Assembly (NCBI RefSeq): GCF_014651515.1
Contig: NZ_BMXA01000003.1
Span: 62,001-126,000, forward strand
Reading direction: 5' to 3'
Source of the DNA: Arenicella chitinivorans
Lineage (GTDB): Bacteria; Pseudomonadota; Gammaproteobacteria; Arenicellales; Arenicellaceae
DNA length: 64,000 nucleotides
A program made the position numbers and the translations under genes. The notes under the pieces were generated by a model. The model searched no databases. It was not told the DNA's origin and worked only from the letters and a program-made list of their open reading frames with translations. Of this stretch, positions 6,936 through 31,305 are shown piece after piece. Position 1 is the first letter of the stretch. Every line of letters starts with the position of its first letter.

Positions 6936-7583
6936 ATGGAATTGACGAGCGTAATGGGGTTTGTGGTCATGGCAACACTATTGGTGATTTCGCCTGGGCC
7001 CAATGGTCTGCTGGTTACCAAGACTTTTTATGCCGCGGGCAGGCCAATGGCGATTGCTAATATCGTCGGTTTTATCGGCGCATTCTATGTGCACGGCACA
7101 CTAGCGGTTTTTGGCATCTCAATGTTGATTGTGCAGTCGGCACAGGCGTATCAGATATTTAAATTCTGTGGTGCGGCTTATCTGATCTGGCTCGGATTAC
7201 GGTCCTTGATTGATGCTTGGCGGAGTGATTCAACCATCGCGCCGGTCCGTACAGTCGGACGAGCACAGTCCTACTCAATCCGCACAGGTGTCACGGAGGG
7301 CTTTTTAACTAACGTGCTTAATCCAAAGGTATCAATTTTTTATCTTGCCGCGTTTCCTCAATTTCTGCCATTAGAGGGCAGCTCGACGGTCGCGTACATG
7401 CTGGTGACCACACATATGCTGATTAATGTAGTTTGGTTTTCACTGATGGTAATGTTGTTGAGTCAAATAGACGTCGGTGCGACTGGCAAGAGATTACGTC
7501 GGGTGTTGAAATCGATCACTGGTACCTTTTTCATCGGATTTGGAATAAAACTGCTGCTGTTAAAACCAATGGACAGTGACTAG
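6936..7583 (+). CDS. LysE-family amino-acid/metabolite exporter
   Basis: The ATG at 6936 is chosen over an in-frame TTG at 6924 because GGAG at 6926-6929 gives correct ribosome-site spacing. The 215-residue product carries the LysE/RhtB N-terminal signature (ISPGPNGLLVTKTFYAAGR) and about six transmembrane helices, with the conserved EGFLTNVLNPKVSIFYLA loop in the middle. The family exports amino acids or derivatives by proton exchange at the inner membrane. It is divergent from arsR with about 140 bp between, so shared regulation with the arsenic genes is possible but unproven. The substrate is unknown. Confidence 0.88.
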   Translation: MELTSVMGFVVMATLLVISPGPNGLLVTKTFYAAGRPMAIANIVGFIGAFYVHGTLAVFGISMLIVQSAQAYQIFKFCGAAYLIWLGLRSLIDAWRSDSTIAPVRTVGRAQSYSIRTGVTEGFLTNVLNPKVSIFYLAAFPQFLPLEGSSTVAYMLVTTHMLINVVWFSLMVMLLSQIDVGATGKRLRRVLKSITGTFFIGFGIKLLLLKPMDSD

Positions 7584-7597
7584 CAGAGACTAACCTA

Positions 7598-8086
7598 ATG
7601 AGACTTGCCCCGACGCAGATACTTATCATGGTGGTGTTTTTGTTTTGGGTCGCAAAGGCTTGCGCCGCTGACTGTCATTCAATGGCGGCACTGGAGTGGA
7701 TGCAGGGCGATTGGGTATCTGAAACACCAAAACGCAGTTACCACGAGTCTTGGTGGCGGGTCAGTGATCACACCTTTGAAGGGCGAAGCATGGTTCGTCG
7801 GGCTGGTCGAGAGGTGGTCAGTCAAGAATCACTCCGGTTGCTCTTTATGTCCGGTGATGTATTTTACCTTGCAAAAGTGCCTGAAAATCCGTTGCCAATT
7901 GCGTTCAAACTCAGTGTGTGTGGTGAGAAAAGTGCGACATTCACCAATCCTGAACACGACTTTCCTCAACGAATCCGCTACACACGGAAGCCCGATCACC
8001 GTCTCGCAGTCGAGGTTGGAACCTTGGAAAAGACAGCGTTCAAAATTATGTTTACGCAAAGTCGTGATTCCAATCCAAGGAAGTGA
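7598..8086 (+). CDS. DUF6265-family secreted protein
   Basis: 162 residues with an N-terminal hydrophobic signal segment (ILIMVVFLFWVAKACAA) and a beta-rich domain. The landmarks LEWMQGDWVSE, YHESWW and NPEHDFPQRIRY are the pattern I associate with DUF6265, an uncharacterised small periplasmic or surface family. It lies 14 bp after the LysE-type exporter and is probably co-transcribed. A longer open frame (7605-8246) overlaps it in another phase but is Arg/Lys-rich nonsense and is treated as a shadow. The function is unknown. Confidence 0.75.
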   Translation: MRLAPTQILIMVVFLFWVAKACAADCHSMAALEWMQGDWVSETPKRSYHESWWRVSDHTFEGRSMVRRAGREVVSQESLRLLFMSGDVFYLAKVPENPLPIAFKLSVCGEKSATFTNPEHDFPQRIRYTRKPDHRLAVEVGTLEKTAFKIMFTQSRDSNPRK

Positions 8087-9482: not shown

Positions 9483-11582
9483 CTAGTGGCGCTTTTCGAG
9501 AATTTTAATTTCAGTTTCTTCGTTCAAAAATTTGGGGAACAGCACGCGTTTCTGGTCGGCAGAAATGGTGTAATCCAGTAACGGATTGAGTATCGGAAAC
9601 AAAGTCTGGCGGTCCCGCGTTGTGAGATCGACATAAGTCAAAGTATTGGTATCCTTGCCAATCGATAGGTAATAGAACCCATTACCTCGCGCATACAACG
9701 CATCGTAGGCGTAGATGTTGGTGTCGTTGACCAGTTTTTCGACGGATTTGTCGGCAAGGTTCATTTTCCAGATTCCATTCTGGTGGTATTTGTAAAACAA
9801 CATGTCGCCGTTGGCGGTTAGCTCAGGGGCGTAGCCGCCGCGTTCAGTGATTTTCACTGGTGGCTCGTCGGTACCGAGTTGTTTTTGATAAATCTGCCAG
9901 TCGCCGTCCAGGTCCGAGGAAAAGTAGATCGATTTGCCATCCAGAGCCCAGCTGGCGGTTTCAATGCGTGACGGTTTAGAACCCTGCCAAATAGTTTGAT
10001 AGGTCTTTTTAGCGACATCAAAGGTGTATACCTCGGTGTCGGTCGTGGCCAGTATGGCGCTATCATCGGGTGACCAGCGTAAACGCGGGATTAGTCGTCC
10101 ATCGGTGAATTTACTGAGTTGATACTCTCGTTGCTTACTGCGTATCCAGATCTGGGGTTGCCCGCTTCGCAGCGACATAAACGCGACATCATCGGATTGA
10201 TTAGCAAGTTCGGGATACAAATCAATTTCACTGGATTGAATAACCGGTTCGTCAGTATCGCTAGCATCGGTGGTTCGTCCCCATATATCGACGCCGGTTT
10301 CGCCAGTCATGATGGCCAGTTTGTCTTCCAGCGGGTGTGCGCTGATCGCGTGTAAGGTGTCTGTGTTACCTAGGACTTGTTTGTGAAATTTGTGTTTCAG
10401 GGAATACGCGTAAACATCGTCGTTAGTATCTATGTAGTACAGGAATTCCCCATCATGAGACCAGGCCAGGGCTTTTCGCCAACCGTTCAGGTTGAACAAC
10501 GTGGTGATTCTGGAGGTGTGTAGATCAAGCACATTGACCTCGGTATTGCCCCAATTCAGGTCACGCGAGAAGGCCAGGCGACGATTGTCATTGGATAAGG
10601 CAATATGAATATCGCCTTTTGACTTGCCGCTTTCAGGGTTGGTAAGTTGCTCACGCTTTGAAGTCTTGGTGGAATACTTATAAATTTTGTATGGGTCGAC
10701 CGCCGAGAGTGAATCGGTGTAATAAATATGTTCGTCTTGGCCCCAAACGACTTCGTTGGGTAGGCCGCTGGCGTGGCAGTCGACAACTGGCGATGCCGTG
10801 GTATTGGTATCGTGCGTCTTCATTTGCATTATCTGGCACTGGCCTTCATGGTGCCGTACAAACACCAGAGAGCTGCCGTCAGGTGACCAAGATGGCGAAG
10901 TATCGTCACCACTGCCTCGAGTTAGTTGTCTTGGAGATTCGCCATCCACCGACTGCACGTACAGTTTAAAAAATGGTTCGCCTTTCGCTCGATGGGCATA
11001 CGCAATAGAATGCCCATCGGGCGAGTAAGCTGCGTCTTTTTCCTGCCCAATTAGGACACTGAAGGGTTTAATGAGATTAAACGCCTGCATGGCCCGATAA
11101 CTGGCAGACTTGGTCAAATAATACGATCCAACCCAGAAAGCGGCTACGAGCAATGGAAGGGCGACCAATAACGATAAAAATTTTGTTGAGTTAGTCCGAG
11201 TAGGCGACAGTGGCGCTTGGTCAATACTCGTTTGCGTTGGTGCCGGTGAACCAGGATCTGGCGCCGCTTGCCATTGCACTGGTTGCACTAACTGGTAGCC
11301 TTTTTTTCGTATCGTCGTGATATAGGCATTATTTTGGTCTTCGCCAAGTATTTTGCGAATTTGATTTATGACGCGATAGATCGCATGGTCGCCGACGATA
11401 CGCCCCTTCCAAACATGCTGGATCAGTTCCTCCAGACTCACAACTTTGTTGGGATTCTCAGCGAAATGAACTAGAACAGCCATGGCCAACGGTTCCACGA
11501 AGAACTCTTGGTTCCCGAGAGAAAGCTTGTTCTGGTCCGGCGATATTTGCCAGGCGCCAAGGGTAAAGGGTCTACTCATCAA
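9483..11582 (-). CDS. CadC-like transmembrane regulator with TolB/WD40-type propeller
   Basis: 699 residues. Residues ~5-100 form an OmpR/CadC-type winged helix (LGNQEFFVEPLAMAVLVHF, SLEELIQHVWKGRIVGDHAI, TTIRKKGYQLV). A Pro/Ser/Thr linker leads to one transmembrane helix at ~135-155. The rest is a periplasmic beta-propeller with repeated TolB-type blades (DAAYSPDGHSIAYAH, DTSPSWSPDGSSLVFV, ALAWSHDGEFLYYI, ASWALDGKSIYFSSD). Such proteins sense an envelope signal and bind DNA while in the membrane. It is divergent from the precursor-peptide operon, and its gene is bracketed by two copies of a TCATTA direct repeat, so it is the obvious candidate regulator of both neighbours. Confidence 0.88.
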   Translation of the reverse strand: MMSRPFTLGAWQISPDQNKLSLGNQEFFVEPLAMAVLVHFAENPNKVVSLEELIQHVWKGRIVGDHAIYRVINQIRKILGEDQNNAYITTIRKKGYQLVQPVQWQAAPDPGSPAPTQTSIDQAPLSPTRTNSTKFLSLLVALPLLVAAFWVGSYYLTKSASYRAMQAFNLIKPFSVLIGQEKDAAYSPDGHSIAYAHRAKGEPFFKLYVQSVDGESPRQLTRGSGDDTSPSWSPDGSSLVFVRHHEGQCQIMQMKTHDTNTTASPVVDCHASGLPNEVVWGQDEHIYYTDSLSAVDPYKIYKYSTKTSKREQLTNPESGKSKGDIHIALSNDNRRLAFSRDLNWGNTEVNVLDLHTSRITTLFNLNGWRKALAWSHDGEFLYYIDTNDDVYAYSLKHKFHKQVLGNTDTLHAISAHPLEDKLAIMTGETGVDIWGRTTDASDTDEPVIQSSEIDLYPELANQSDDVAFMSLRSGQPQIWIRSKQREYQLSKFTDGRLIPRLRWSPDDSAILATTDTEVYTFDVAKKTYQTIWQGSKPSRIETASWALDGKSIYFSSDLDGDWQIYQKQLGTDEPPVKITERGGYAPELTANGDMLFYKYHQNGIWKMNLADKSVEKLVNDTNIYAYDALYARGNGFYYLSIGKDTNTLTYVDLTTRDRQTLFPILNPLLDYTISADQKRVLFPKFLNEETEIKILEKRH

Positions 11583-12262: not shown

Positions 12263-13501
12263 ATGTCTCGAATTAATTCCAAATACGTCGCTGATCGACT
12301 ACCAATTTTCGTTGGGATCAGCATCTTGCTGTCTCCGATCATCGTGATCGTGCTGCTAAATTTTGTCCCTGTAACGGAACAGATTGAACAGGTCGAAGGT
12401 GTGATCTCAAGTGACAGTGGCCCCCGCAGTCTGCGTGCGGAACGTCAGTTTCTGGTTCGTAAAAACCACGTGCGTGTCAATCAACACGTTCAGAAGGGTG
12501 ATCTGTTGGTGGAGTTCGATGACCAAGAAACACGGCGGACCTTGGAGATGCAACGGTTAACTATCGAGAAGTTGGAATTTCAGATCCAGACTCTGGAATC
12601 TCAGCAAGCTCTGATCAGTGAGAATGTGGCATTGTTGGAAGACATTCATGATCAAAAAGCTCAGAAGAAAGTGTTGCTGGCTGCGCAGCAGGGGTCGCAG
12701 AAAAAGTTGCTGGACCAACAAAAAGAATTGTCAGTCAAAGCGGTTACCACGGCTAAGAAGCTGAGTCAGTCCTTAGCAAATGTTGACAGCCGCAGTATTT
12801 CAGAACTGCGTCGTCTGGAGATACTGCGTTCCACCAACAGCACGATTGGTGAATTGCAAACCCTAGAACAAAAACTAAGCGAACAGCCAATTTTGCATGC
12901 CCTAAAAGATATCGAAGCATCAATCGAGCTGTCATCGATTCGAGAAAAGATTGTCTCTTCTAAGATCGAGCTGAATGAGATTGCGACTCAGCTCAATGAC
13001 GCGCAGCAAAAAATTAAAGAAGAACAGCTGGCATATCAAAACCTAATGACTGAGGTTGCGCGGTTTTCGATTCGAGCACCCATAACCGGCACAGTAGCGC
13101 ACTTGTCTGACAACTTGAATAAGTCCAACATGATCAATAAGGATGAAGTGATTTTGATTATCTCACCTGATGTTGAACCAACGCTGAAAGCGCAACTGGC
13201 ACTGACGGATGAGCAGTATAAGGATGCACGCGTCGCACAGAATGTGAATCTAGAAATCTGGGCTTGGAACCATTTTAAACACGGCGTGGTGACTGGCAAG
13301 GTGGTCGCTATTTCACCAGAAAAAGTGACTTCGGAATTGTTAAATAAGCCGAGCTATATCGCCGATGTCGAAATTCTACAGATGCCCAAGGACTACTACA
13401 CTTTGAAACGGGGTTTCAGCCTCAAGGCAAATATCGATATTGGAACCATCAGTCTGCTTGACTACATTCTGAAGAAATTCAACCTAGAAAAACCGGCATA
13501 A
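12263..13501 (+). CDS. HlyD-family periplasmic adaptor of the peptide exporter
   Basis: 412 residues. There is a short cytoplasmic N-terminus, one transmembrane helix at ~14-35, then a lipoyl half-motif (VRVNQHVQKGDLLVEFDDQE, ~70-90). A long coiled coil follows (~90-270, rich in Gln/Lys/Glu/Leu heptads), then the second lipoyl half (FSIRAPITGTVAHL), and a beta-barrel/membrane-proximal domain to the C-terminus. It bridges the inner-membrane ABC exporter to an outer-membrane TolC-type channel, which is not encoded here. The gene is the first after the attenuator and stops 3 bp before the exporter gene. Confidence 0.9.
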   Translation: MSRINSKYVADRLPIFVGISILLSPIIVIVLLNFVPVTEQIEQVEGVISSDSGPRSLRAERQFLVRKNHVRVNQHVQKGDLLVEFDDQETRRTLEMQRLTIEKLEFQIQTLESQQALISENVALLEDIHDQKAQKKVLLAAQQGSQKKLLDQQKELSVKAVTTAKKLSQSLANVDSRSISELRRLEILRSTNSTIGELQTLEQKLSEQPILHALKDIEASIELSSIREKIVSSKIELNEIATQLNDAQQKIKEEQLAYQNLMTEVARFSIRAPITGTVAHLSDNLNKSNMINKDEVILIISPDVEPTLKAQLALTDEQYKDARVAQNVNLEIWAWNHFKHGVVTGKVVAISPEKVTSELLNKPSYIADVEILQMPKDYYTLKRGFSLKANIDIGTISLLDYILKKFNLEKPA

Positions 13502-13504
13502 ACT

Positions 13505-15970
13505 ATGAACGCTTTCGTCGAAAAAATTGTGTGCAGTAATCTAGGTGACAAACAACGCAACACCAATGATTGCGCCGTTAGCGTCGTCAAGACACTGTAC
13601 AACCTGAAAAAGATAAATATTAATCGTAACCAGATTAAGGCATCGCTGACCCTGGATGAAGAGGGCGTTTCTTTCCAAAGTGTCAAAAGTCATCTGGTGG
13701 CCAATGGTTTTGATTGCGATTACATCGCATTAGGAACCCAGTCCAATCCGCTGGCGCAGCTAGCCGACCGAACACCATTGATTGCAATGGTGACTGCTGG
13801 TTTGCGCAAGCACTTTATCTTGATCAAATCGATCTATAAAAACCACGCCTTGGTGATGGACCCAGCAAACGGTGAGTTTCGAAACTGGTCGCTTGAGACG
13901 TTAGAAGCAAAGCTCACGCATTCGACATCTAAGGTCAATGAAGACATCTTAATTGCACATACGCGACAGTACATTCAGGAGCGATTGGATTCGTATGGAC
14001 TGACAGTCGACGTGTCACTCAAAGCCAATTGCATCGAGACCTACAACAAACTAGGCTATTTTGATTGGTTCGCTAAGCAGCATGGGTTTCACGACACGCA
14101 AGATGAAAAAGCATTTCTAGGTTCGCTGATCGAGGCCGACGAAAAGAAGGTCTTGCCATCGCATTTTCGGAAGCTGCGTTACATCAACGACGCCACGAAC
14201 ATCAAAACTCCGGTGTTACTCACGGTCGATCTTGAAAACTACATTCAACCCGATGGTGTGGTGGAAGACAAACAACACAGTTCGGTGATCGCACGTTTGT
14301 TCGGCATCATTTTGCGTTCCAAGAAATCTTCTTGGTTGCTCTCGAGCTTCATGATGGTCGGATTTTTGGCTGCCATGATGACGTACATAGCTGTCTACGC
14401 GAATCAGATTCTGATCGACGAGATTTTTCCTAAGCGGCATATCCTGACCCTGTATTCATTCGCTTTTGTGCTGTTTATTTTTCGTTTTGGCGAGTTCTTT
14501 TTGAACGTACTCAAAACCGCCAGCCAGATATTTATGGATCAGATACTGGACAAATACTTCTATCAAACCTTCAGTCGCCAGTTGTTGTTTTCCAACGAGG
14601 AGTACATTCGAACCTACAGCAAAGGGGACTTGGCGCAGCGCGTCAATGACATTCTAAAAGTTAAGCAATTAGTCTCTAAATTTATCAACGACGTGTTGTT
14701 GAGTTCCGTCATCGTGGTGTTCTCGATTGGCATGTTGTTTTTCTACAATGCCACGCTTGCATTGATCGTATTTGGTATCGGCGCGCTGTATCTGGTGGTG
14801 TTTCGTTACGCGTCTTCCGTGGTGCGCAATTTGGAATCGACCCTGTTCACCGAGAAAGGCAAGTTGTTAAACACTCTGCTCGACAAAGTAGAGGGACATT
14901 CCATTATCCGCCGTTGTCAAAGCGAAACCTTTTTTATGGACGAAGATGCGGTCATCACTGAGAGCTATCTTCGCGTGCAGCAGAAAGCCCGGTTTACTGG
15001 CTTTTTCCTGTCTTACTTTCCACGCTTTATTAGCGTGATTGGTTCCATCGCGATGGTGATGGTGGCTGGGCGCTTACTCATTAACGATAACGCCTTGTCG
15101 CTGGGCCAGGTGCTGGCGGTGATTGGGCTGGCTGAGATTACCTTCAGTGCCATGCGCACGCTCCTTAGTGCACAACTTATGCTGCAGGAAAGTATTGTGG
15201 TGGTGGAGCGATTCTTTGACTTTTGCGGTGCTGAACCGGTGTCCGCGCCCAAAGTTGGTCAACGTAAGTCGATAAGTCGAATCGATATCCGTGACCTGCA
15301 CTACCAGTTTCCGAATCAGAAATTTGCATTGAACATAGATCGGATAGCATTTCACCAAGGTGAAACAGTGTACGTGGATGGCGCCAATGGCTGTGGTAAA
15401 TCCACGATGCTTAGTTTAATTGGTGGCTCGTTACAACCGACGGAGCCGCACACCATTCAGTACGTCGATCCCGACGGCGGGTTCGTTAGTGAGCCAGATG
15501 CGCGAAAAAGTGTTTTGCTGACACGACCTGAAGACAAGATTTTCAATAACACCCTTAATTTTAATATCTATTTGGGACGAGACACGCGCAATTTCGACAT
15601 CTACTCACTGGCAAAGAAAATCGGCGCCGATGACTTTATTTGTCCGAGCCAGCTTCATGTCGATGCGTTGATCAGCGACGGTGGCAGTAATTTATCGGCT
15701 GGGCAGCGTCGTAAAATACTTTTGTTACGGGCCATCGTGAGTGACTGTAGCGTGCTTATTTTCGATGAGATTTTTCGCGGTGTGGATAAAGCGTCGAAGG
15801 AGAAAATCTGTCACTTCTTCAATGAATTTGATAATCGGACCTTGATCTTCACCTCGCATGAGCCGATTGATCAGCTGCGGGTGGATCGCGTGATTTCGAT
15901 GGCTGGTGGTCGTGTCATTGACGACACCGCGAGTCATGACCAAACCATTATTTGTGAGGAGGCGGTGTAG
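13505..15970 (+). CDS. ABC exporter with N-terminal C39 peptidase (PCAT)
   Basis: 821 residues. The N-terminal C39 domain keeps its catalytic residues: Gln17 (oxyanion), Cys23 in NTNDCAVSVV, His103 in LRKHFILI and Asp119 in VMDPANG. So it should both cleave the leader after a Gly-Ala type site and export the core. A ~110-residue linker follows, then a six-helix transmembrane domain (~260-560). The nucleotide-binding domain has Walker A GANGCGKST (~627-635), signature NLSAGQRRKILLL (~729) and Walker B VLIFDEIF (~750) with the catalytic Glu. It sits between the HlyD gene and the kinase gene, which starts 2 bp after its stop. Confidence 0.93.
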   Translation: MNAFVEKIVCSNLGDKQRNTNDCAVSVVKTLYNLKKININRNQIKASLTLDEEGVSFQSVKSHLVANGFDCDYIALGTQSNPLAQLADRTPLIAMVTAGLRKHFILIKSIYKNHALVMDPANGEFRNWSLETLEAKLTHSTSKVNEDILIAHTRQYIQERLDSYGLTVDVSLKANCIETYNKLGYFDWFAKQHGFHDTQDEKAFLGSLIEADEKKVLPSHFRKLRYINDATNIKTPVLLTVDLENYIQPDGVVEDKQHSSVIARLFGIILRSKKSSWLLSSFMMVGFLAAMMTYIAVYANQILIDEIFPKRHILTLYSFAFVLFIFRFGEFFLNVLKTASQIFMDQILDKYFYQTFSRQLLFSNEEYIRTYSKGDLAQRVNDILKVKQLVSKFINDVLLSSVIVVFSIGMLFFYNATLALIVFGIGALYLVVFRYASSVVRNLESTLFTEKGKLLNTLLDKVEGHSIIRRCQSETFFMDEDAVITESYLRVQQKARFTGFFLSYFPRFISVIGSIAMVMVAGRLLINDNALSLGQVLAVIGLAEITFSAMRTLLSAQLMLQESIVVVERFFDFCGAEPVSAPKVGQRKSISRIDIRDLHYQFPNQKFALNIDRIAFHQGETVYVDGANGCGKSTMLSLIGGSLQPTEPHTIQYVDPDGGFVSEPDARKSVLLTRPEDKIFNNTLNFNIYLGRDTRNFDIYSLAKKIGADDFICPSQLHVDALISDGGSNLSAGQRRKILLLRAIVSDCSVLIFDEIFRGVDKASKEKICHFFNEFDNRTLIFTSHEPIDQLRVDRVISMAGGRVIDDTASHDQTIICEEAV

Positions 15971-15972
15971 TT

Positions 15973-17124
15973 ATGCAGCTTTACCAACAACGAGAATCGA
16001 TTCATTTTGAGGTAGCGAATCCAACCAGCGATCAGGTGATTGCGACGGTCACGCGCGGTCCAAGCAAAGCGCGATTTGCAATTAATCGAGCAATCATGAC
16101 TTTTGTGCAGCAGTTCGAAACACCTTGTACCACCGATGAGGCGATCCGCCGCTATTGTAAGCAAGAAAGAATCCAGTTGACCGACGCACGGCAGCGAGAT
16201 CTTCGTGCGTTCGCGCGCCAGATTGCTGCCACACTGCTCCTAAATCCGATTCACACCAACGCCGAAACCGCGGAGCAGTCGATCGCACCGCTCGGATTCG
16301 AGCACCGACGTACGTTTAAAGACAAGCGTTTTGATGCTGTGTGCTTGGTCAACACGCCAGACGGCTTGCAAGTGATCAAGAATATAAAAGAACAAGTCGT
16401 TACGCAGTCGGCACGTCGTGACATTCTGCGTGATCTCGAGAATGAGTTTCGGGTGCTCACGCGTCTAGACGGTGTGTCTGGGGTTGTTGCTGCGCGGACT
16501 TTCTGTGCTACCTCGCCGGCCTATTTCGCAATGGACTATGTGTGCGGAGATCGGTTGGACAAATACGTGCGTTCGCAGCCATTATGTTTGCTGCAGCGTT
16601 TGGACATGGCGATGCAGCTATTGAGGTTGTTTGCAGAGATCCACGACGCCGGTGTATTGCACGGTGATGTTCATCTTGGCAACTTTATGTGTTCGCCAAC
16701 ACGGCAGATAACCGTTATCGATTTCGGCTGTGCCAGCATGCAGGATTCAGACTACCGTCCTAGCGGTGGTGCAACACCACATTTTGCGCCACCCGAGCGT
16801 GCTTCCGAGAGCTGGACCCGGGTGTGCCATTCACAACCAACGCGAGCAAGCGAGTGTTACCAGCTAGGTATTGTGATTGCCTATGTGATGACCGGCACAC
16901 TGCCGTTTCGGGGTAAAACCTATCGCGAATTGCACCGTGCCATTATGTCCGCTGAATATAGGCTGCCAACAACAACGCCGGATGGGCAGCCGATTCCGCC
17001 AGCGCTGCACAATCTGATTGGCGACATGTTGCAGCGAAACCCCGATGACCGACCATCCGACCTGATGCGTCTGGCTCACCAATTTCAATCTTATGCAAAC
17101 CAGGAGAGTGCCCATGTTATTTAG
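15973..17124 (+). CDS. Protein kinase-fold enzyme with N-terminal RRE/PqqD-like region
   Basis: 383 residues. The kinase core runs from ~108 to 375: Lys136 in LQVIKNIK, a helix-C Glu near 156-158, catalytic loop HGDVHLGN (230-237, Asp232 and Asn237), DFG at 250-252, and the activation-end APPERAS. All catalytic residues are present, so it should be active. Residues ~10-92 have the strand-strand-helix-helix pattern of PqqD-like RiPP recognition elements (FAINRAIMTFVQQF, CTTDEAIRRYC, LRAFARQIAATLLL). That call is from pattern only. There is no lyase or cyclase domain, so it is not a class III/IV lanthipeptide synthetase. Its last 11 bases overlap the hydroxylase gene. Confidence 0.82.
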   Translation: MQLYQQRESIHFEVANPTSDQVIATVTRGPSKARFAINRAIMTFVQQFETPCTTDEAIRRYCKQERIQLTDARQRDLRAFARQIAATLLLNPIHTNAETAEQSIAPLGFEHRRTFKDKRFDAVCLVNTPDGLQVIKNIKEQVVTQSARRDILRDLENEFRVLTRLDGVSGVVAARTFCATSPAYFAMDYVCGDRLDKYVRSQPLCLLQRLDMAMQLLRLFAEIHDAGVLHGDVHLGNFMCSPTRQITVIDFGCASMQDSDYRPSGGATPHFAPPERASESWTRVCHSQPTRASECYQLGIVIAYVMTGTLPFRGKTYRELHRAIMSAEYRLPTTTPDGQPIPPALHNLIGDMLQRNPDDRPSDLMRLAHQFQSYANQESAHVI

Positions 17125-18307
17125 TCAACTTGATGACTCGACACCGGACAATGGTGTTGTCAGTGATTTCACCCTAGAAAGTGTGCTGCGGCCGCTGACC
17201 GCACAGGACTTTTTTGATGATTATTGGGAGAAAAAGCCCTTTATCATTAAACGCAATAACCCAGATTACTATAAAGAGATTCTGAATCTAGAGACCTTGA
17301 ACGAAGTGTTTGCTTCTCGTATGTTTCGAGCGTCGGACATGCGTATTTTTAATAATGGTGAGAAGCGTGAATTCCAAGCATTTTCGAAGAAGAACAAAGC
17401 CAACGGCAACGTGGTGTTGAAAGAATTTGAAAATGGTTCGACAATTATTTTTGAAAACTTGGATCGCAATCATCTGCAGCTCGCCAAATTGATTCGAAAC
17501 CTTGAAAATGAACTGCATATTGATTTGCGTACCAATGTGTATCTCACGCCAGCGCAGGCAACCGGCTTCAAGGCACATTGGGATACACACTGTGTGCTGG
17601 TGATGCAGGTTCACGGCACCAAGCAATGGGAGATTTATGATAACCCGGTACCACTGCCCACAGAGAATCAAAAATACGACCCAGAGACCGGCGCGAAGGC
17701 GCAACACATTACCTCATTTCTAATGGAAGAAGGTGACATTGCTTATATTCCGCGCGGCTTCGTGCACAAAGCCAGTGCGCAGGACCAAGCTAGCTTGCAC
17801 GTGACTATGGGGCTGCGTCCCTTGGCGGTAAAAGACTTGTTGCGTGAGGTATTAAACAGTGTTTGCAAACAACATGTCGATCTTCGGCATGGTTTATTAC
17901 CCAAAGGCGAATTTGATGATGAAGCCTTGCGTGCCCAGTTGGTTGAGATCATGCAGCAGGCCGACTTATCTAAGTACCGCGAGCGGCTATACAAGAAATA
18001 TATTCTAGAACGGTATCCGATTCTGGACACGCAACTCAGCAGTTTGGTCAAAAATAATGTGATCGAGCAAGAAACTGATTGCCAAGTGAAACCCCACATG
18101 GTGTGGAAAGTGTTCGAAAACGAGTCGCAGTTGTCACTGTTGTTCGACGGTAAGTCAATGCATTTTCCGAAAGCCATGAAACCAAGCCTGACGTTCTTCG
18201 AACAATGTCGAAAGTTCTGCGTTGATCAAATTCCGGGTCTTGATCAAAAGAGTCGTCAAATATTAGCACAGCGTCTGGTGCATGAAGGCTTTCTAGAGGT
18301 GCATTAG
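17114..18307 (+). CDS. JmjC-domain Fe(II)/2-oxoglutarate hydroxylase, ribosomal-oxygenase type
   Basis: 397 residues from ATG 17114, chosen over an upstream in-frame ATG at 17093 because AGGAGAG at 17102-17108 is correctly spaced. The cupin/JmjC core carries the iron triad His155-x-Asp157 (FKAHWDTHCVLVM) and His218 (IPRGFVHKA). The basic residue in GTKQWEIY probably contacts 2-oxoglutarate. The C-terminal ~100 residues look like the winged-helix domain of the YcfD/MINA53/NO66 group, which hydroxylates Arg or His of ribosomal proteins. Here it lies inside a peptide export operon, so the precursor peptide is the more likely substrate. Overlap with the kinase gene implies coupled translation. 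Confidence 0.87.
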   Translation: MLFSQLDDSTPDNGVVSDFTLESVLRPLTAQDFFDDYWEKKPFIIKRNNPDYYKEILNLETLNEVFASRMFRASDMRIFNNGEKREFQAFSKKNKANGNVVLKEFENGSTIIFENLDRNHLQLAKLIRNLENELHIDLRTNVYLTPAQATGFKAHWDTHCVLVMQVHGTKQWEIYDNPVPLPTENQKYDPETGAKAQHITSFLMEEGDIAYIPRGFVHKASAQDQASLHVTMGLRPLAVKDLLREVLNSVCKQHVDLRHGLLPKGEFDDEALRAQLVEIMQQADLSKYRERLYKKYILERYPILDTQLSSLVKNNVIEQETDCQVKPHMVWKVFENESQLSLLFDGKSMHFPKAMKPSLTFFEQCRKFCVDQIPGLDQKSRQILAQRLVHEGFLEVH

Positions 18308-18310
18308 CGT

Positions 18311-19588
18311 ATGGTTCGGCGCTGGCGTCGTATAAGTATGTGGATCGGGTTGTCCCTCATTATCATCGCCCTGACGTGGTTTGTCCTTGCCATGTCACGG
18401 GCGGTGGTGGTGTTCACAGAAGGGGGTATTTATCAACGCATCATGATTCCGGTTGGGGCAAAGTTTCTAGCCTGGCGTGCAGACTTGGCAATCCATGCAG
18501 AGCAACCCGATTTGCGTATGCCACAAGGACCAATTGTGGCACCACGCGCGGATAATCGCTATGAAGTTTCTTGGGTGTGTGGTCAAGATGTACAGCGTGA
18601 ACTGGTGACAGCAACCGAAATTGACCTCCAATGTCGAGATCATCGGCGACATATTCATTGGATGACAACACAAGCAACACAGCGGCCCTTCAGCTCAGAC
18701 AACAACGTAGCCGTGATCAGCGATTTAGAGGGGAATTTGGCGTATTTTCTGGATTGGGGTAAACACGCTGGTGTATTAGATGATGCTGGGCGATGGGCCT
18801 TTGGAGATGGTCAGCTGGTGATTCTTGGTGACAGCGTGGATCGTGGTCGCCAGGTTTTCGATTTGCTGTGGAAATTGCATGCACTTGAATATGAAGCAAC
18901 CATCGCGGGTGGTGCGGTACATGTAATTTTAGGCAATCATGAACAGTACGTGTTGCAAGGCCGACTCTCGAGTGTGGAACCGGAACACCTTTGGGCCACT
19001 GAACAAATGATGCCGTATGCGGATGCCTGGTCTGCTCAAACGGTGCTTGGTCGGTGGTTGCGCAGTAAACCAATTATGCTGACGCTGGGCGACACGCTAT
19101 TCGTGCATGGTGGCATCAGTCCCAGTGCATTACAGCTGGGTTTGACGGTGGAACAGTGGAATCAGCGGCATCGCAGTGCCCTTATGCTCAACAATCATGA
19201 TCCTCAAGTATTCGGGCCAACGTCGCCGACGCAATACCGTGGTTACTTATATGCAACCGACGCCTATTCGCTGGCAACCCAATCGCACATTGAAGCAACG
19301 TTAACACAGTTCGGTGTCCAACGAATCGTGGTTGGCCATACGCAGACAGAGGCTCTAACACCGCGTTTTAATAATCGAGTCTTCGCAATCGAGCTGGGCG
19401 AACACGCTGGCGACTATTTAATGATCATGAATCATGAGCCGGTGGTGAAGCAGAGCGAACTACGCAAACAGCGATTTCGTGACCCCAATACACATCAGCG
19501 ACAATTTGAATTACTTAACCGCTCAGACTGGCGAGCATTTTTTGGTGTGTTTATTACGGCAGGTCGATCTGTTTTTGCGTCTATGTGA
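18311..19588 (+). CDS. Membrane-anchored PPP-type metallophosphatase, catalytic domain probably periplasmic
   Basis: 425 residues. A basic N-terminus (RRWRR) precedes a transmembrane helix at ~11-29, so the bulk should lie outside the cytoplasm. After a ~100-residue extra domain come the PPP motifs: SDLEGN (Asp138, Glu140), GDSVDRG (172-178), LGNHE (207-211), VHGG (265-268) and VVGHTQ (340-345). The first motif has Glu where the family normally has His (DxH), which may alter metal choice or activity. The start is 3 bp after the hydroxylase stop, so it is the last gene of the five-gene block. A peptide-phosphate substrate is an inference from context. Confidence 0.83.
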   Translation: MVRRWRRISMWIGLSLIIIALTWFVLAMSRAVVVFTEGGIYQRIMIPVGAKFLAWRADLAIHAEQPDLRMPQGPIVAPRADNRYEVSWVCGQDVQRELVTATEIDLQCRDHRRHIHWMTTQATQRPFSSDNNVAVISDLEGNLAYFLDWGKHAGVLDDAGRWAFGDGQLVILGDSVDRGRQVFDLLWKLHALEYEATIAGGAVHVILGNHEQYVLQGRLSSVEPEHLWATEQMMPYADAWSAQTVLGRWLRSKPIMLTLGDTLFVHGGISPSALQLGLTVEQWNQRHRSALMLNNHDPQVFGPTSPTQYRGYLYATDAYSLATQSHIEATLTQFGVQRIVVGHTQTEALTPRFNNRVFAIELGEHAGDYLMIMNHEPVVKQSELRKQRFRDPNTHQRQFELLNRSDWRAFFGVFITAGRSVFASM

Positions 19589-28290: not shown

Positions 28291-28306
28291 TTTACGTTAC
28301 AGTAAA
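28291..28306. promoter_or_regulatory. Second inverted repeat near the ketosynthase start
   Basis: TTTAC-GTTACA-GTAAA, a 5-bp dyad 42 bp before the start codon, within the likely core promoter. A different sequence from the repeat at 28194, so it may be a second regulator site or part of the promoter. Confidence 0.3.
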
Positions 28307-28347
28307 CCTCTTGTTTTCAACATGTTTAACAACCGCGAGGGTTTATT

Positions 28348-29397
28348 ATGAATTATCACTCAGATTTTGGGTTTCAAAAAGTCATCACTCATAACACTAA
28401 GATTTTGTCTGTGGGAACGTACCTACCCAATGAAGTGTTAAAGTCAGACCACATGTTCGAAGCATTTGATTCAGAAAAAAATTATGGAATCAAAACAACT
28501 TGGATGTCGAAAGAAATGGGGATCAAAGAGCGTCGAGTATCGGAGCCTGGCACATTACCTTCTCAACTTGCTATACCGGCGGCACGTCGAGCGATTGAGA
28601 ACTGCCCTCATCTGAACCCAGATGAGATCGATTTAGTTATTTTTTGTGGGATTGAGCGAGATCAGGCGGAGCCTGCTACTGCGCATACCATTCAATCTGC
28701 GTTGGGACTCAAAGCAAATCACGCATTTGATGTATCCAATGCGTGTTTTGGATTTATGCATGGTATTGAAGTCGCCAATCATTTTATTAAAAGTGGTGCC
28801 ACAAAGTACGCGCTGGTGGTGACCGGTGAAGTGCCAAGCCGCATTCTTCGTGCCGCGATGAATGGCTTAAATAAGGGAATGAGTCGCGAACGCGCGATGG
28901 ACGTCATTGGTGCCTTGTCTGTTGGAGACGCAGGTGGTGCCGTGGTACTTGGATTGTCGGGCTATGGCGAAAATTGTGGCTTTGAATTATTCAACACGCG
29001 TACCGACAGCTCACACTTGGAAAAGTGCTTTTATCGCGTGAATCCAGATGGGTCGATTGATGGCCAAATGAAGATGGGCCCGATCGTTGGTGCGTCGATC
29101 TGGATGCATAAGAAAATTATCAACGATACCTTGAGTAAGCTAGGTTGGGACAATTTCGACTGGGTGCTGAGTCACCAGACCGGAAAACGCCCATTTGAGA
29201 AGTTTACCGCGATGAGTACGGTGCCAGCAAAGCGAATGATTCGCACTTACCATAAATTAGGCAATATTGCATCCGCAACCTTCCCATTAAACTATGAGAA
29301 ATTGCTAAAAAGTGGTAAAGTGCGCCAAGGAGATCGTATTGGGGGTATCCACTCGGGATCAGGGTTAGTAGTAGGAGAGTTTGGATACCGCGTTTAG
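28348..29397 (+). CDS. Ketoacyl-synthase III (FabH-like) family protein
   Basis: 349 residues, thiolase fold. The KAS III triad is complete: Cys133 in VSNACFGFMHG, His276 in LSHQTGKRP and Asn306 in LGNIASATFPLN. The C-terminal GGIHSGSGLVVGEFGY is also typical. It should condense an acyl thioester with a malonyl-type extender or make a related acyl transfer. It is not in a fab cluster and its sequence is divergent from housekeeping FabH. The only partner is the membrane-bound Fis-type regulator that begins 27 bp downstream. GAGGG seven bases before the ATG is the ribosome site. A signal or special lipid product is an inference. Confidence 0.85.
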   Translation: MNYHSDFGFQKVITHNTKILSVGTYLPNEVLKSDHMFEAFDSEKNYGIKTTWMSKEMGIKERRVSEPGTLPSQLAIPAARRAIENCPHLNPDEIDLVIFCGIERDQAEPATAHTIQSALGLKANHAFDVSNACFGFMHGIEVANHFIKSGATKYALVVTGEVPSRILRAAMNGLNKGMSRERAMDVIGALSVGDAGGAVVLGLSGYGENCGFELFNTRTDSSHLEKCFYRVNPDGSIDGQMKMGPIVGASIWMHKKIINDTLSKLGWDNFDWVLSHQTGKRPFEKFTAMSTVPAKRMIRTYHKLGNIASATFPLNYEKLLKSGKVRQGDRIGGIHSGSGLVVGEFGYRV

Positions 29398-29424
29398 TTA
29401 AAAATACGGGTTAGGAGAGGTACT

Positions 29425-30345
29425 ATGGAATATTTTGTGTTGCCCGCGCTAATCGCGCTGCTGATTAAAATTGTCGTGCTGGTGCTGGCGCGGAAATCTG
29501 AGAAAACATCTCGTTTATTTCTCACCATGGTGGTGCTTTTTGCGCTCCATAACCTGACCGAGGTGGTGGTTATCTTTGGCTTGTTCAGCGGAGAGATATC
29601 AACCTACATGTTGCGAGCTTATTATGCGGTGACTATGGTGTCATTGGCTTATATCGTAGTCTACGCACTGGAAGTCACAAAACAGGGCGCTATCCGCAGC
29701 TGGATGACAGCTTTGTTGCCATCCTCATTGCTGATGGTCGGTTTGGTCGTCACCACCGATCTGGTAATCGCAGGATCCCAGTCAATTGGGTACACTGTGA
29801 CCGCTGTTCGTGGCGATTACTATGTCGCATTCCAGTTGTTTTCGTTGGCAATGGTAGCCTTGGCGATGTCGGTATTATTACGTGGCTTCTTGAAAGCACG
29901 TGATGAGCTGACGCAAGTGCAGAGTTTGTATACTGCCATCGCGGTGACGCCGGTGTTTTTAGTCGGCTTAATCGTGATGATTGTCATGCACTTAGGGATT
30001 CAAATGTCTGCGGCGTTGTTAATGCCAGTGGCTACTTCAGCTTTCTTGTTTTTTACTTTTCGAAGTGAGCGCGAACATGGTCTCACCGATATAGGTGCCA
30101 TTATCGGATCTTCCAGAAAACGGATCACCGCCAATATCGTGGCGGATTTGACGCAGCAGTATTTGGACGATCGAGTGAGCTTGAAAGACGCAAAAAATGA
30201 GTTTGAACGCCAGTTGCTACAGCATAATCTAGACCGCTTCGGTAACAATGTATCCAAAACCGCACGTGAATTAGGTATGAAACGCACAACGATCTATTCC
30301 ATGGTCAAAAAGCATGGAATTAGTGTGCAAGAGAAAGAAGCCTAA
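29425..30345 (+). CDS. Seven-helix membrane protein with C-terminal Fis-type DNA-binding domain
   Basis: 306 residues. The first ~215 residues form about seven hydrophobic helices (3-20, 31-54, 59-83, 93-113, 130-148, 165-185, 190-212). A ~40-residue linker leads to a Fis/HTH_8 domain (residues ~258-300: EFERQLLQHNLDRFGNNVSK, TARELGMKRTTIYSMVKKHG). There is no AAA+ domain, so it is not a sigma-54 activator of NtrC type. The layout is a one-component sensor: membrane ligand perception directly coupled to DNA binding. It is co-transcribed with the ketosynthase and is probably its regulator. I know no described example with this pairing. Confidence 0.85.
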   Translation: MEYFVLPALIALLIKIVVLVLARKSEKTSRLFLTMVVLFALHNLTEVVVIFGLFSGEISTYMLRAYYAVTMVSLAYIVVYALEVTKQGAIRSWMTALLPSSLLMVGLVVTTDLVIAGSQSIGYTVTAVRGDYYVAFQLFSLAMVALAMSVLLRGFLKARDELTQVQSLYTAIAVTPVFLVGLIVMIVMHLGIQMSAALLMPVATSAFLFFTFRSEREHGLTDIGAIIGSSRKRITANIVADLTQQYLDDRVSLKDAKNEFERQLLQHNLDRFGNNVSKTARELGMKRTTIYSMVKKHGISVQEKEA

Positions 30346-30426: not shown

Positions 30427-31305
30427 TCAGTCAAAGCTGAGTATGGGATCATCCACGATGTCTTGTAGTAAGGGACTCTGAGCAGCACGTGCGAAGGCGT
30501 CGTCAATTGCTTTAAATCGTGCCGCAATGGATTGGCGATGACTGGGATGAGTAAAAATATACAGTTCGCCGGCAGCTAGGGCCTCGATTACTCGTTTACC
30601 AACGAGGTCGACAGGAATTCCGTTCTCAACCAGCTCTTGGGCCGCATTCTTCTTGCCCTTGTTCTCTTCTTGTACGCTAGTCTCTAGCTTGTACTCAGCC
30701 TGGCGGTTGCGGTGCGACAGGTGAATTCGGGTTTGCACGAAAGCCGGGCAAAGCACGGAAACATGGATGTTATGTTTGGCCAGCTCGACATGCCAGGATT
30801 CTGACATCCCAACCACAGCGACCTTGGTCGCCGTGTACGCACCGGCATATGGTATTCCAGCCATGCCTGCCATAGAGGCAACATTGATGACCCAGCCGCC
30901 TTCACCGTGCTGTTTAATCAACGGCACAGCCGCCTCCATGCCGTAGAGCACACCCATTAGGTTGACGTCGGTCACCCATCGCCAATCTTGATGACTGGTC
31001 CGTTCGATGGGCCCCGGAGCACCGCTAACGCCGGCGTTATTCACGATCATATGCACTTTGTCGAAGCGGTCGATTGCGGCCTGACACAATGTCTGCCAAT
31101 CTTCTGGTTTAGTGACGTCCATGGGCACACTGAGACATGGGATCTTAAGCTCGGTCAAAGCTTGATCGGCGAGCGCAAGCTGCGCTTCGTCGATATCACC
31201 TAGTACGATGTTCATACCTTGCTCGCCCAAGGCTTTCGCAATACTTAAGCCGATACCTTCCGCACCGCCACTGATGAGCGCGGTCTTGTTTGTTAAATTC
31301 ATCAC
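30427..31305 (-). CDS. SDR-family oxidoreductase
   Basis: 292 residues, classical short-chain dehydrogenase with a longer C-terminus. Cofactor motif SGGAEGIG at ~11-18 with an acidic Asp at the end of strand 2 (LGDID), suggesting NAD(H). NNAGVSG near 90, catalytic Ser in NVASMAG, and active-site Tyr/Lys in YTATK. The substrate is unknown. It is convergent with the ketosynthase operon across a terminator, so a joint pathway (ketoreduction of the ketosynthase product) is possible but not supported by co-transcription. Confidence 0.88.
   Translation of the reverse strand: MMNLTNKTALISGGAEGIGLSIAKALGEQGMNIVLGDIDEAQLALADQALTELKIPCLSVPMDVTKPEDWQTLCQAAIDRFDKVHMIVNNAGVSGAPGPIERTSHQDWRWVTDVNLMGVLYGMEAAVPLIKQHGEGGWVINVASMAGMAGIPYAGAYTATKVAVVGMSESWHVELAKHNIHVSVLCPAFVQTRIHLSHRNRQAEYKLETSVQEENKGKKNAAQELVENGIPVDLVGKRVIEALAAGELYIFTHPSHRQSIAARFKAIDDAFARAAQSPLLQDIVDDPILSFD

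Follow-up and report, generated by a model that had tools for sequence, protein, structure and literature searches.

Two adjacent genes of Arenicella chitinivorans, one encoding a ketosynthase (KS) of the KAS III type and the other a membrane protein with seven helices (7TM) that ends in a Fis-type helix-turn-helix (HTH), are best read, as we hold with moderate confidence from what the genes predict, as a dedicated lipid-signal synthase and its membrane-embedded one-component receptor. Two features that were not part of the earlier note on this DNA sharpen the signalling hypothesis, namely, a glutamate of the OleA type in the KS and a predicted GPCR-like fold of the 7TM domain. The pair lies in a stretch of 64,000 nucleotides, here called the window, within a 4.03 Mb genome that is 99.6% complete; its features are listed in Table 1.

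Table 1. Positions in the window of the two genes, their parts and the upstream element
Feature	Position	Strand	Basis
Candidate element TTACGTTACAGTAAACCTC, 56 to 38 bp before the KS start codon	28292..28310	+	shared with G005
KAS III-type ketosynthase (KS), 349 aa	28348..29397	+	Pfam ACP_syn_III and ACP_syn_III_C
Glu108 codon (EPATAH motif), equivalent to OleA Glu117 and PpyS Glu105	28669..28671	+	
Active-site Cys133 codon	28744..28746	+	invariant in 96/96 KSs
Ribosome-binding site AGGAGAG of the regulator gene	29413..29419	+	read from sequence
Membrane-embedded regulator, 7TM and Fis-type HTH, 306 aa	29425..30345	+	Pfam HTH_8; AlphaFold mean pLDDT 84.2
7TM domain, residues 1-222, predicted GPCR-like, N-out/C-in	29425..30090	+	structure comparison of model
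Fis-type helix-turn-helix region, residues 253-296	30181..30312	+	HTH_8 and model helices

Pairing of the two genes

When considering a functional link between the KS and the regulator, the first question is whether the two genes belong together. The earlier note had claimed a two-gene unit at 28348-30345, and both reading frames are indeed found there, on the same strand and separated by a gap of 27 bp, with the pair being kept elsewhere. A second pair resides in the same genome (KS at C1:586771-587775, 54% identical; regulator at C1:588001-588885, 37% identical), and the nearest named relatives with the pair are Arenicella genomes. Upon comparison with 60 relatives, a KS match (E<1e-60) was found in 18 of the 61 genomes, and a 7TM gene adjoins nearly all these KSs. 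Up to three divergent pairs are present per Arenicella genome, for example, in G007 and G013, and several Arenicella relatives are devoid of the KS. The gene maps of the Arenicella loci show that the pair stays together while the flanking genes vary; at two of these loci (L072 and L081), the regulator is inverted so that it faces the KS from the other strand, yet the two are still adjacent.

Beyond the relatives, the best 80 KS loci in GTDB genomes, retrieved with a profile of the paired KSs, comprise 67 proteobacterial loci, one of which is titled Nitrospirae, and 13 actinobacterial loci from Streptomyces and Kitasatospora. A 7TM-domain gene is adjacent to the KS, or one gene away from it, in 62 of the 67 proteobacterial loci, with carriers that include Marinomonas transparens, Exilibacterium tricleocarpae and a Motiliproteus. 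Four of the five unpaired loci (L123, L137, L153 and L172) end at a contig edge just after or inside the KS, which leaves L138 as the one true exception; among the 13 actinobacterial loci (L166-L181), no 7TM match was found. Since the profile behind this list had been built from paired KSs, the KS and 7TM profiles were also run separately on a sample of 370 genomes of the class: the 7TM domain occurs in six and the KS in five of them, and all nine KS genes sit beside a 7TM gene. Thus, the system is patchy but tightly linked. A regulator occurring mostly without the ketosynthase was the outcome that the earlier note had regarded as fatal to its reading; the regulator mostly adjoins the KS, both in the relatives and in the 370-genome sample.

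Solitary regulators do exist. In G007 (C1), a lone 7TM regulator stands among flanking genes arranged as at a paired locus, but with the KS gone, and in G004, a C-terminal KS remnant (L074:10241-10525) lies beside an intact 7TM regulator, that is, the KS decayed and the regulator was kept. Genomes G021 and G049 carry 7TM regulators with no KS nearby, and the apparently unpaired regulator of G001 (C141) is at a contig edge with the end of a KS adjoining. A plasmid search with the KS or the regulator gave no match.

The patristic distances of the KS and the 7TM domain are correlated with r=0.84 (n=60 pairs; reached in none of 2000 permutations), a value of the kind that shared descent alone raises; within Arenicella (n=25 pairs), the correlation is 0.54 between the KS and the 7TM domain and 0.67 between the KS and the HTH, again with none of 2000 permutations reaching it. 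The stronger point in favour of co-inheritance is the matching of ancient paralogous clades: the clades A, B', C and D, which coexist in the same genomes, are found in the KS tree as well as in the 7TM tree. Their support is high for the most part, with just 0.16 for clade D in the KS tree, and comparison of the two trees revealed no exchange of partners among them. The 7TM and HTH regions diverge faster than the KS, the median identities being 32%, 33% and 52%, respectively. Hence, the genes of the putative synthase and receptor are co-inherited as a pair, as is demanded of a quorum-sensing system. Taken together, the gene maps, the 62 of 67 loci, the 370-genome sample and the tree correlation rule out that the two genes are chance neighbours.

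The ketosynthase and its probable product

The ACP_syn_III domains and the Cys-His-Asn triad assign the KS to the KAS III superfamily with its thiolase fold. The residues on which the claim of a catalytically complete enzyme had been based, Cys133, His276 and Asn306, are the correct ones and are conserved in all 32 aligned relatives; in a wider set of KSs, Cys133 and His276 are present in 96 of 96 and Asn306 in 95, with one gap. Glu108 is equally invariant in the wider alignment (96/96). The best PDB match of the KS-family profile is OleA (3row, E=4.7e-54), and the residue aligned with Glu108 is the sole one that differs (D, Q, A) from the wild type in the OleA mutants 5vxh, 5vxf and 5vxd. In OleA, the equivalent glutamate reaches into the neighbouring monomer and acts as a base, whereas in PpyS, Glu105 is required for the formation of photopyrone, a known signal, and the E105A replacement abolishes the product (PMC4578411). 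The window KS, accordingly, carries the glutamate base of the OleA/PpyS-type head-to-head ketosynthases, and its family probably works like these enzymes. Because the invariant Glu108 aligns with the base of a non-decarboxylative head-to-head condensation, the product would contain two chains and is probably a hydrophobic ketone, beta-keto acid or pyrone.

The KS does not fall into any of the curated families with which it was compared. Against the OleA family PRK09258/NF006720, the window KS scores 169.5 bits and its relatives 203-228 bits, the curated NCBIfam cut-off being 285; against FabH (TIGR00747), it scores 147.7 bits, half of the cut-off of 292.1; and against the DarB/StlD dialkylresorcinol ketosynthases, it scores 28.8-32 bits, with cut-offs of 450-550. 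Being under the curated cut-offs of OleA, FabH and DarB, the KS family is therefore a separate group. In the KSs of Streptomyces and Kitasatospora, the triad and the OleA-type glutamate are kept in three aligned frames.

The membrane-embedded regulator

Pfam and the AlphaFold model agree with the earlier description of the second protein as seven hydrophobic helices joined to an HTH_8 domain with no AAA+ module. The HTH_8 match covers residues 259-291 (36.7 bits, cut-off 22), no AAA+ domain was found in the regulator with Pfam, and the C-terminal HTH matches profiles of the NtrX/PrsR type. The model contains exactly seven membrane helices (6-24, 30-51, 57-84, 90-110, 133-157, 161-189 and 196-215), followed by a linker helix and then by the helical HTH (253-271, 276-283 and 287-296); in this model, TM4 and TM5 are joined by a beta-hairpin, residues 115-129, that resembles ECL2 of GPCRs. 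The loops predicted to face inside contain 4, 2, 2 and 5 basic residues, as compared to 0, 0, 1 and 0 in the loops predicted to face outside; therefore, the regulator is predicted to have the N-out/C-in topology with the HTH in the cytoplasm. The conserved membrane-buried residues of the 7TM domain are Lys15, Glu46 (30/30), Tyr66, Tyr67 and Pro176, of which the first four are candidate sites of ligand binding or switching.

The 7TM domain is predicted to fold like a GPCR, with the N-terminus outside. Structure comparison of the window model listed 50 matches, all of them GPCRs bar one designed GPCR-like protein, with Z decreasing from 17.8 at the top to 16.0 at rank 50; according to the note that accompanies the tool, helical models without a clear match attain about 14 at best and no more than 13 at rank 50. 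The superposition with an mGlu receptor gives Z 17.4 and an rmsd of 3.0 over 197 residues. A distant 7TM domain from a KS-paired protein of another architecture (L161), modelled separately, reaches a top Z of 18.1 over 235 residues with the FSH receptor. Thus, two divergent predicted models contain a bundle that superposes with GPCRs over the whole domain, and Foldseek gives the same GPCR proteins for both, none with E below 0.001. The GPCR-like fold stays a prediction because the alignments behind the two models are shallow (22 and 13 sequences), the Foldseek E values are only about 1e-3, and the predictors were trained on many GPCRs. Microbial rhodopsins are not among the matches shown in the structure comparisons, which is compatible with a rhodopsin likeness all the same. 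With class A and C GPCRs, the window regulator has in common the predicted fold, the N-out/C-in topology and the hairpin between TM4 and TM5; it differs from them in being fused to a DNA-binding domain and in having no G protein, and a relationship at the level of sequence was not seen. Common descent is not claimed here.

What follows the 7TM domain varies among the homologues. The homologues of Arenicella and several further genera have the HTH fused straight onto the 7TM domain; those of other families contain 200-600 intervening residues, resulting in proteins of 460-890 aa, and the extra region of these larger homologues includes a weak sigma-54-type AAA-like region with a lid. The output thus changes while the 7TM input and the KS remain constant, which fits the expectation if the KS product is the input. 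By its sequence, the domain is also linked to HisKA_7TM (PF16927), the N-terminal 7TM domain of histidine kinases: a KS-paired homologue (L164) passes this profile with 38.3 bits (cut-off 28.6), the paralogue of the regulator in the source genome stays just under the cut-off with 26.3 bits, and the window regulator gives no match. A profile-profile comparison with HisKA_7TM, involving four divergent kinases, was weak (58 columns, probability 65%). The HisKA_7TM proteins have a kinase output, whereas the output of the window regulator is the HTH. Four loci (L075:13630-15112, with L076, L077 and L096 at the corresponding site) have two further genes after the KS and an 870-aa 7TM regulator, a conserved one of no assigned family (249-259 aa) and one for an Rce1-like CAAX protease.

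A proposed signalling system and its alternatives

The following scheme can be envisaged. Cys133 of the KS would be loaded with one acyl chain, the alpha proton would be taken by Glu108 of the adjacent monomer, and the carbanion would attack a second acyl thioester, with no decarboxylation of malonate, to give a hydrophobic two-chain product, be it a beta-keto acid, a ketone or a cyclised pyrone-type compound. This product would partition into membranes, spread to neighbouring cells and bind to the cognate regulator within its GPCR-like 7TM bundle; in the ligand-bound regulator, the state of the HTH dimer would be altered and transcription would be changed directly. The regulator would probably also control its own operon via the element near 28292-28310. 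In its logic, such a system would resemble LuxI/LuxR or CqsA/CqsS, pared down to a single enzyme and a single transcription factor in the membrane. At the Arenicella loci, no other biosynthetic gene is conserved, as expected of a signal made by one enzyme. The earlier note had already suggested a signal synthase with a membrane one-component receptor; of this suggestion, the functional pairing is now strongly supported, and the signalling role stands as the best available interpretation. More generally, bacterial receptors of the GPCR fold might act as transcription factors that need no G protein, kinase or second messenger, each having its own two-chain lipid pheromone made by an OleA-type KS, with several orthogonal pairs per marine genome; this wider view is tentative, and we place it somewhat below even chances.

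The main rival to signalling is membrane-lipid homeostasis, where the 7TM domain would sense the acyl-lipid composition or membrane stress and switch on the KS, the product of which (a long-chain ketone, a hydrocarbon precursor or an altered acyl chain) would adjust the membrane with no intercellular signal involved. The best argument for this possibility is that eleven Pseudomonadales loci of one clade (syntenic, L125-L150) keep a conserved neighbourhood of the pair, and in one of them (L131:2091-8022), the neighbours are annotated as the phage-shock genes pspF, pspA and pspC along with a NUDIX gene, which suggests a connection with envelope stress. Moreover, hydrocarbon synthesis is known to be supplied by OleA-type enzymes (PMC4578411), and orphan 7TM regulators persist after the loss of the KS. 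However, lipid-processing genes are not conserved downstream at the Arenicella loci, up to three divergent pairs are found in one genome, and the distribution is patchy, with the KS in only 5 of the 370 genomes of the class and missing from several congeners, so we consider homeostasis unlikely, albeit worth serious attention. Distinctly less probable, in our opinion, is that the KS makes a secondary metabolite, such as an antibiotic, a pyrone or a ketone, and that the 7TM-HTH protein is a pathway-specific regulator or a sensor for self-resistance. Related OleA/PpyS-type ketosynthases do make pseudopyronines and other pyrones (PMC4578411), and the Streptomyces relatives keep the glutamate and the triad with no 7TM gene at all; yet, genes for tailoring, export or resistance are not conserved with the pair, and the varied output domains on the receptor are more like those of a general signal input.

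It is also conceivable that the KS is a FabH-like enzyme that initiates fatty-acid synthesis under the control of a membrane regulator. Canonical FabH is absent from the source genome and from its Arenicella relatives, and the only FabH-family matches in the source genome are the two paired KSs. Nevertheless, the KS attains but half of the FabH cut-off and OleA is the better profile match, and the source genome encodes a 631-aa FabY-like synthase (L188:709-2604) that matches PDB 4cw4 with E=1.3e-228, an entry which we take to be a FabY-type enzyme of Pseudomonas; this synthase probably starts fatty-acid synthesis. Furthermore, G015, a 99% complete congener, has neither the KS pair nor a FabH above noise, whereas canonical FabH and the KS pair coexist in two of the compared genomes, G024 and G032. 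Given the FabY-like enzyme, the congener with neither gene and the genomes with both, the KS is not needed as FabH. The earlier note would have given up its reading if the KS complemented fabH; on the FabH score, the FabY-like enzyme and G015, the idea that the KS serves as the FabH of the cell is rejected, and a FabH-like role under the membrane regulator appears highly improbable. Some congeners also carry a KAS III of the PRK07515 type.

Relation to known systems and significance

Pairs of synthase and receptor have precedents, as have signals made by ketosynthases and receptors that cross the membrane several times, such as CqsS (6TM). OleA of Xanthomonas campestris shares with the window KS the Cys-His-Asn triad and the glutamate base, but belongs to a hydrocarbon pathway, whereas the partner of the window KS is a membrane transcription factor. 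With the NtrC-type enhancer-binding proteins, the window regulator shares the C-terminal Fis-type HTH; it lacks their receiver and the AAA+ module that interacts with sigma-54. Nor is it of the LuxR type, which combines a GerE HTH with an autoinducer-binding domain, as it consists of HTH_8 (Fis) and 7TM only. The synthase CqsA is an aminotransferase-type enzyme, unlike the window KS with its thiolase fold. Still, the proposed system resembles CqsA/CqsS and LqsA/LqsS of alpha-hydroxyketone signalling, in which a lipophilic ketone from one dedicated synthase is sensed by a multi-pass membrane receptor (PMC4821796). The receptor CqsS spans the membrane with six helices and signals through a histidine kinase (PMC4821796), whereas the window regulator has seven helices and is predicted to bind DNA directly; the 6TM sensor with a histidine kinase, typical of CqsS and LqsS, is not found in it. 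By description, there is also a likeness to PpyS/PluR of Photorhabdus, with a hydrophobic signal made from two acyl chains, the essential Glu105 and a transcription factor as the sensor (PMC4578411); PluR, however, is a LuxR-like receptor (PMC4578411), as opposed to the 7TM and Fis-type HTH in the window. A literature search found no description of a system of KS and 7TM-HTH, which is weak evidence since its coverage excluded most subscription journals and preprints.

If the signalling scenario is true, the pair would serve gammaproteobacteria as a means of communication in which the receptor is of a new architecture, with a GPCR-like 7TM domain joined straight to a DNA-binding domain. Hydrophobic signals would be read out by one protein, and a bacterial model of how 7TM bundles pass on the binding of a lipid ligand would become available. 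The receptor class alone might merit more if its fold and ligand were confirmed. Should homeostasis be the correct reading, a regulatory circuit that couples a ketosynthase so strictly with a GPCR-like transcription factor of the membrane would still be undescribed. The pair is small and occurs in cultivable genera (Marinomonas, Exilibacterium, Motiliproteus), and the prediction is clear, namely, that the KS product activates the partner regulator.

The upstream element and the gene surroundings

Upstream of the KS, 18 of the 19 bases of the element TTACGTTACAGTAAACCTC are common to the same position in front of a 79%-identical KS in G005, as compared to a maximum of 15 of 19 after shuffling, and little else is conserved between the two upstream regions. 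Together with the preceding T, the element forms an imperfect inverted repeat, TTTAC-N6-GTAAA. It has one match in the window at up to three mismatches, with 0.01 expected, and could be an operator or a promoter. Genome-wide, it is not enriched, the matches being near the level of a reversed-pattern control, and no regulon was found. Other palindromes upstream of the KS genes were discarded, as there are several per locus and none common to divergent loci.

An SDR gene at 30427-31305 was considered as a third member of the unit and rejected: it is on the opposite strand and, among the Arenicella loci examined, lies beside the pair only in those of close relatives (L063 and L100). Additional 7TM-HTH genes were observed at two of the more distant loci. 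In Exilibacterium tricleocarpae, two extra tandem genes of this kind (L140:1003-2917 and 6963-7865) are located a few kb upstream of the KS-7TM pair, with a ParA/MinD-like gene in between; in Motiliproteus (L168:5947-9042), the KS is apparently split into two frames of 208 and 107 aa, with a tandem of two 7TM-HTH genes behind it. Neither the Rfam scan nor the tRNA scan returned anything for the 64,000-nt window. Elsewhere in the window, a 699-aa protein (9483-11582) that combines an OmpR-type winged HTH with PD40 propeller repeats is possibly another membrane-linked one-component regulator, and a gene cluster at 12263-19588 includes an ABC exporter with a C39 peptidase (13505-15970), reminiscent of peptide export.
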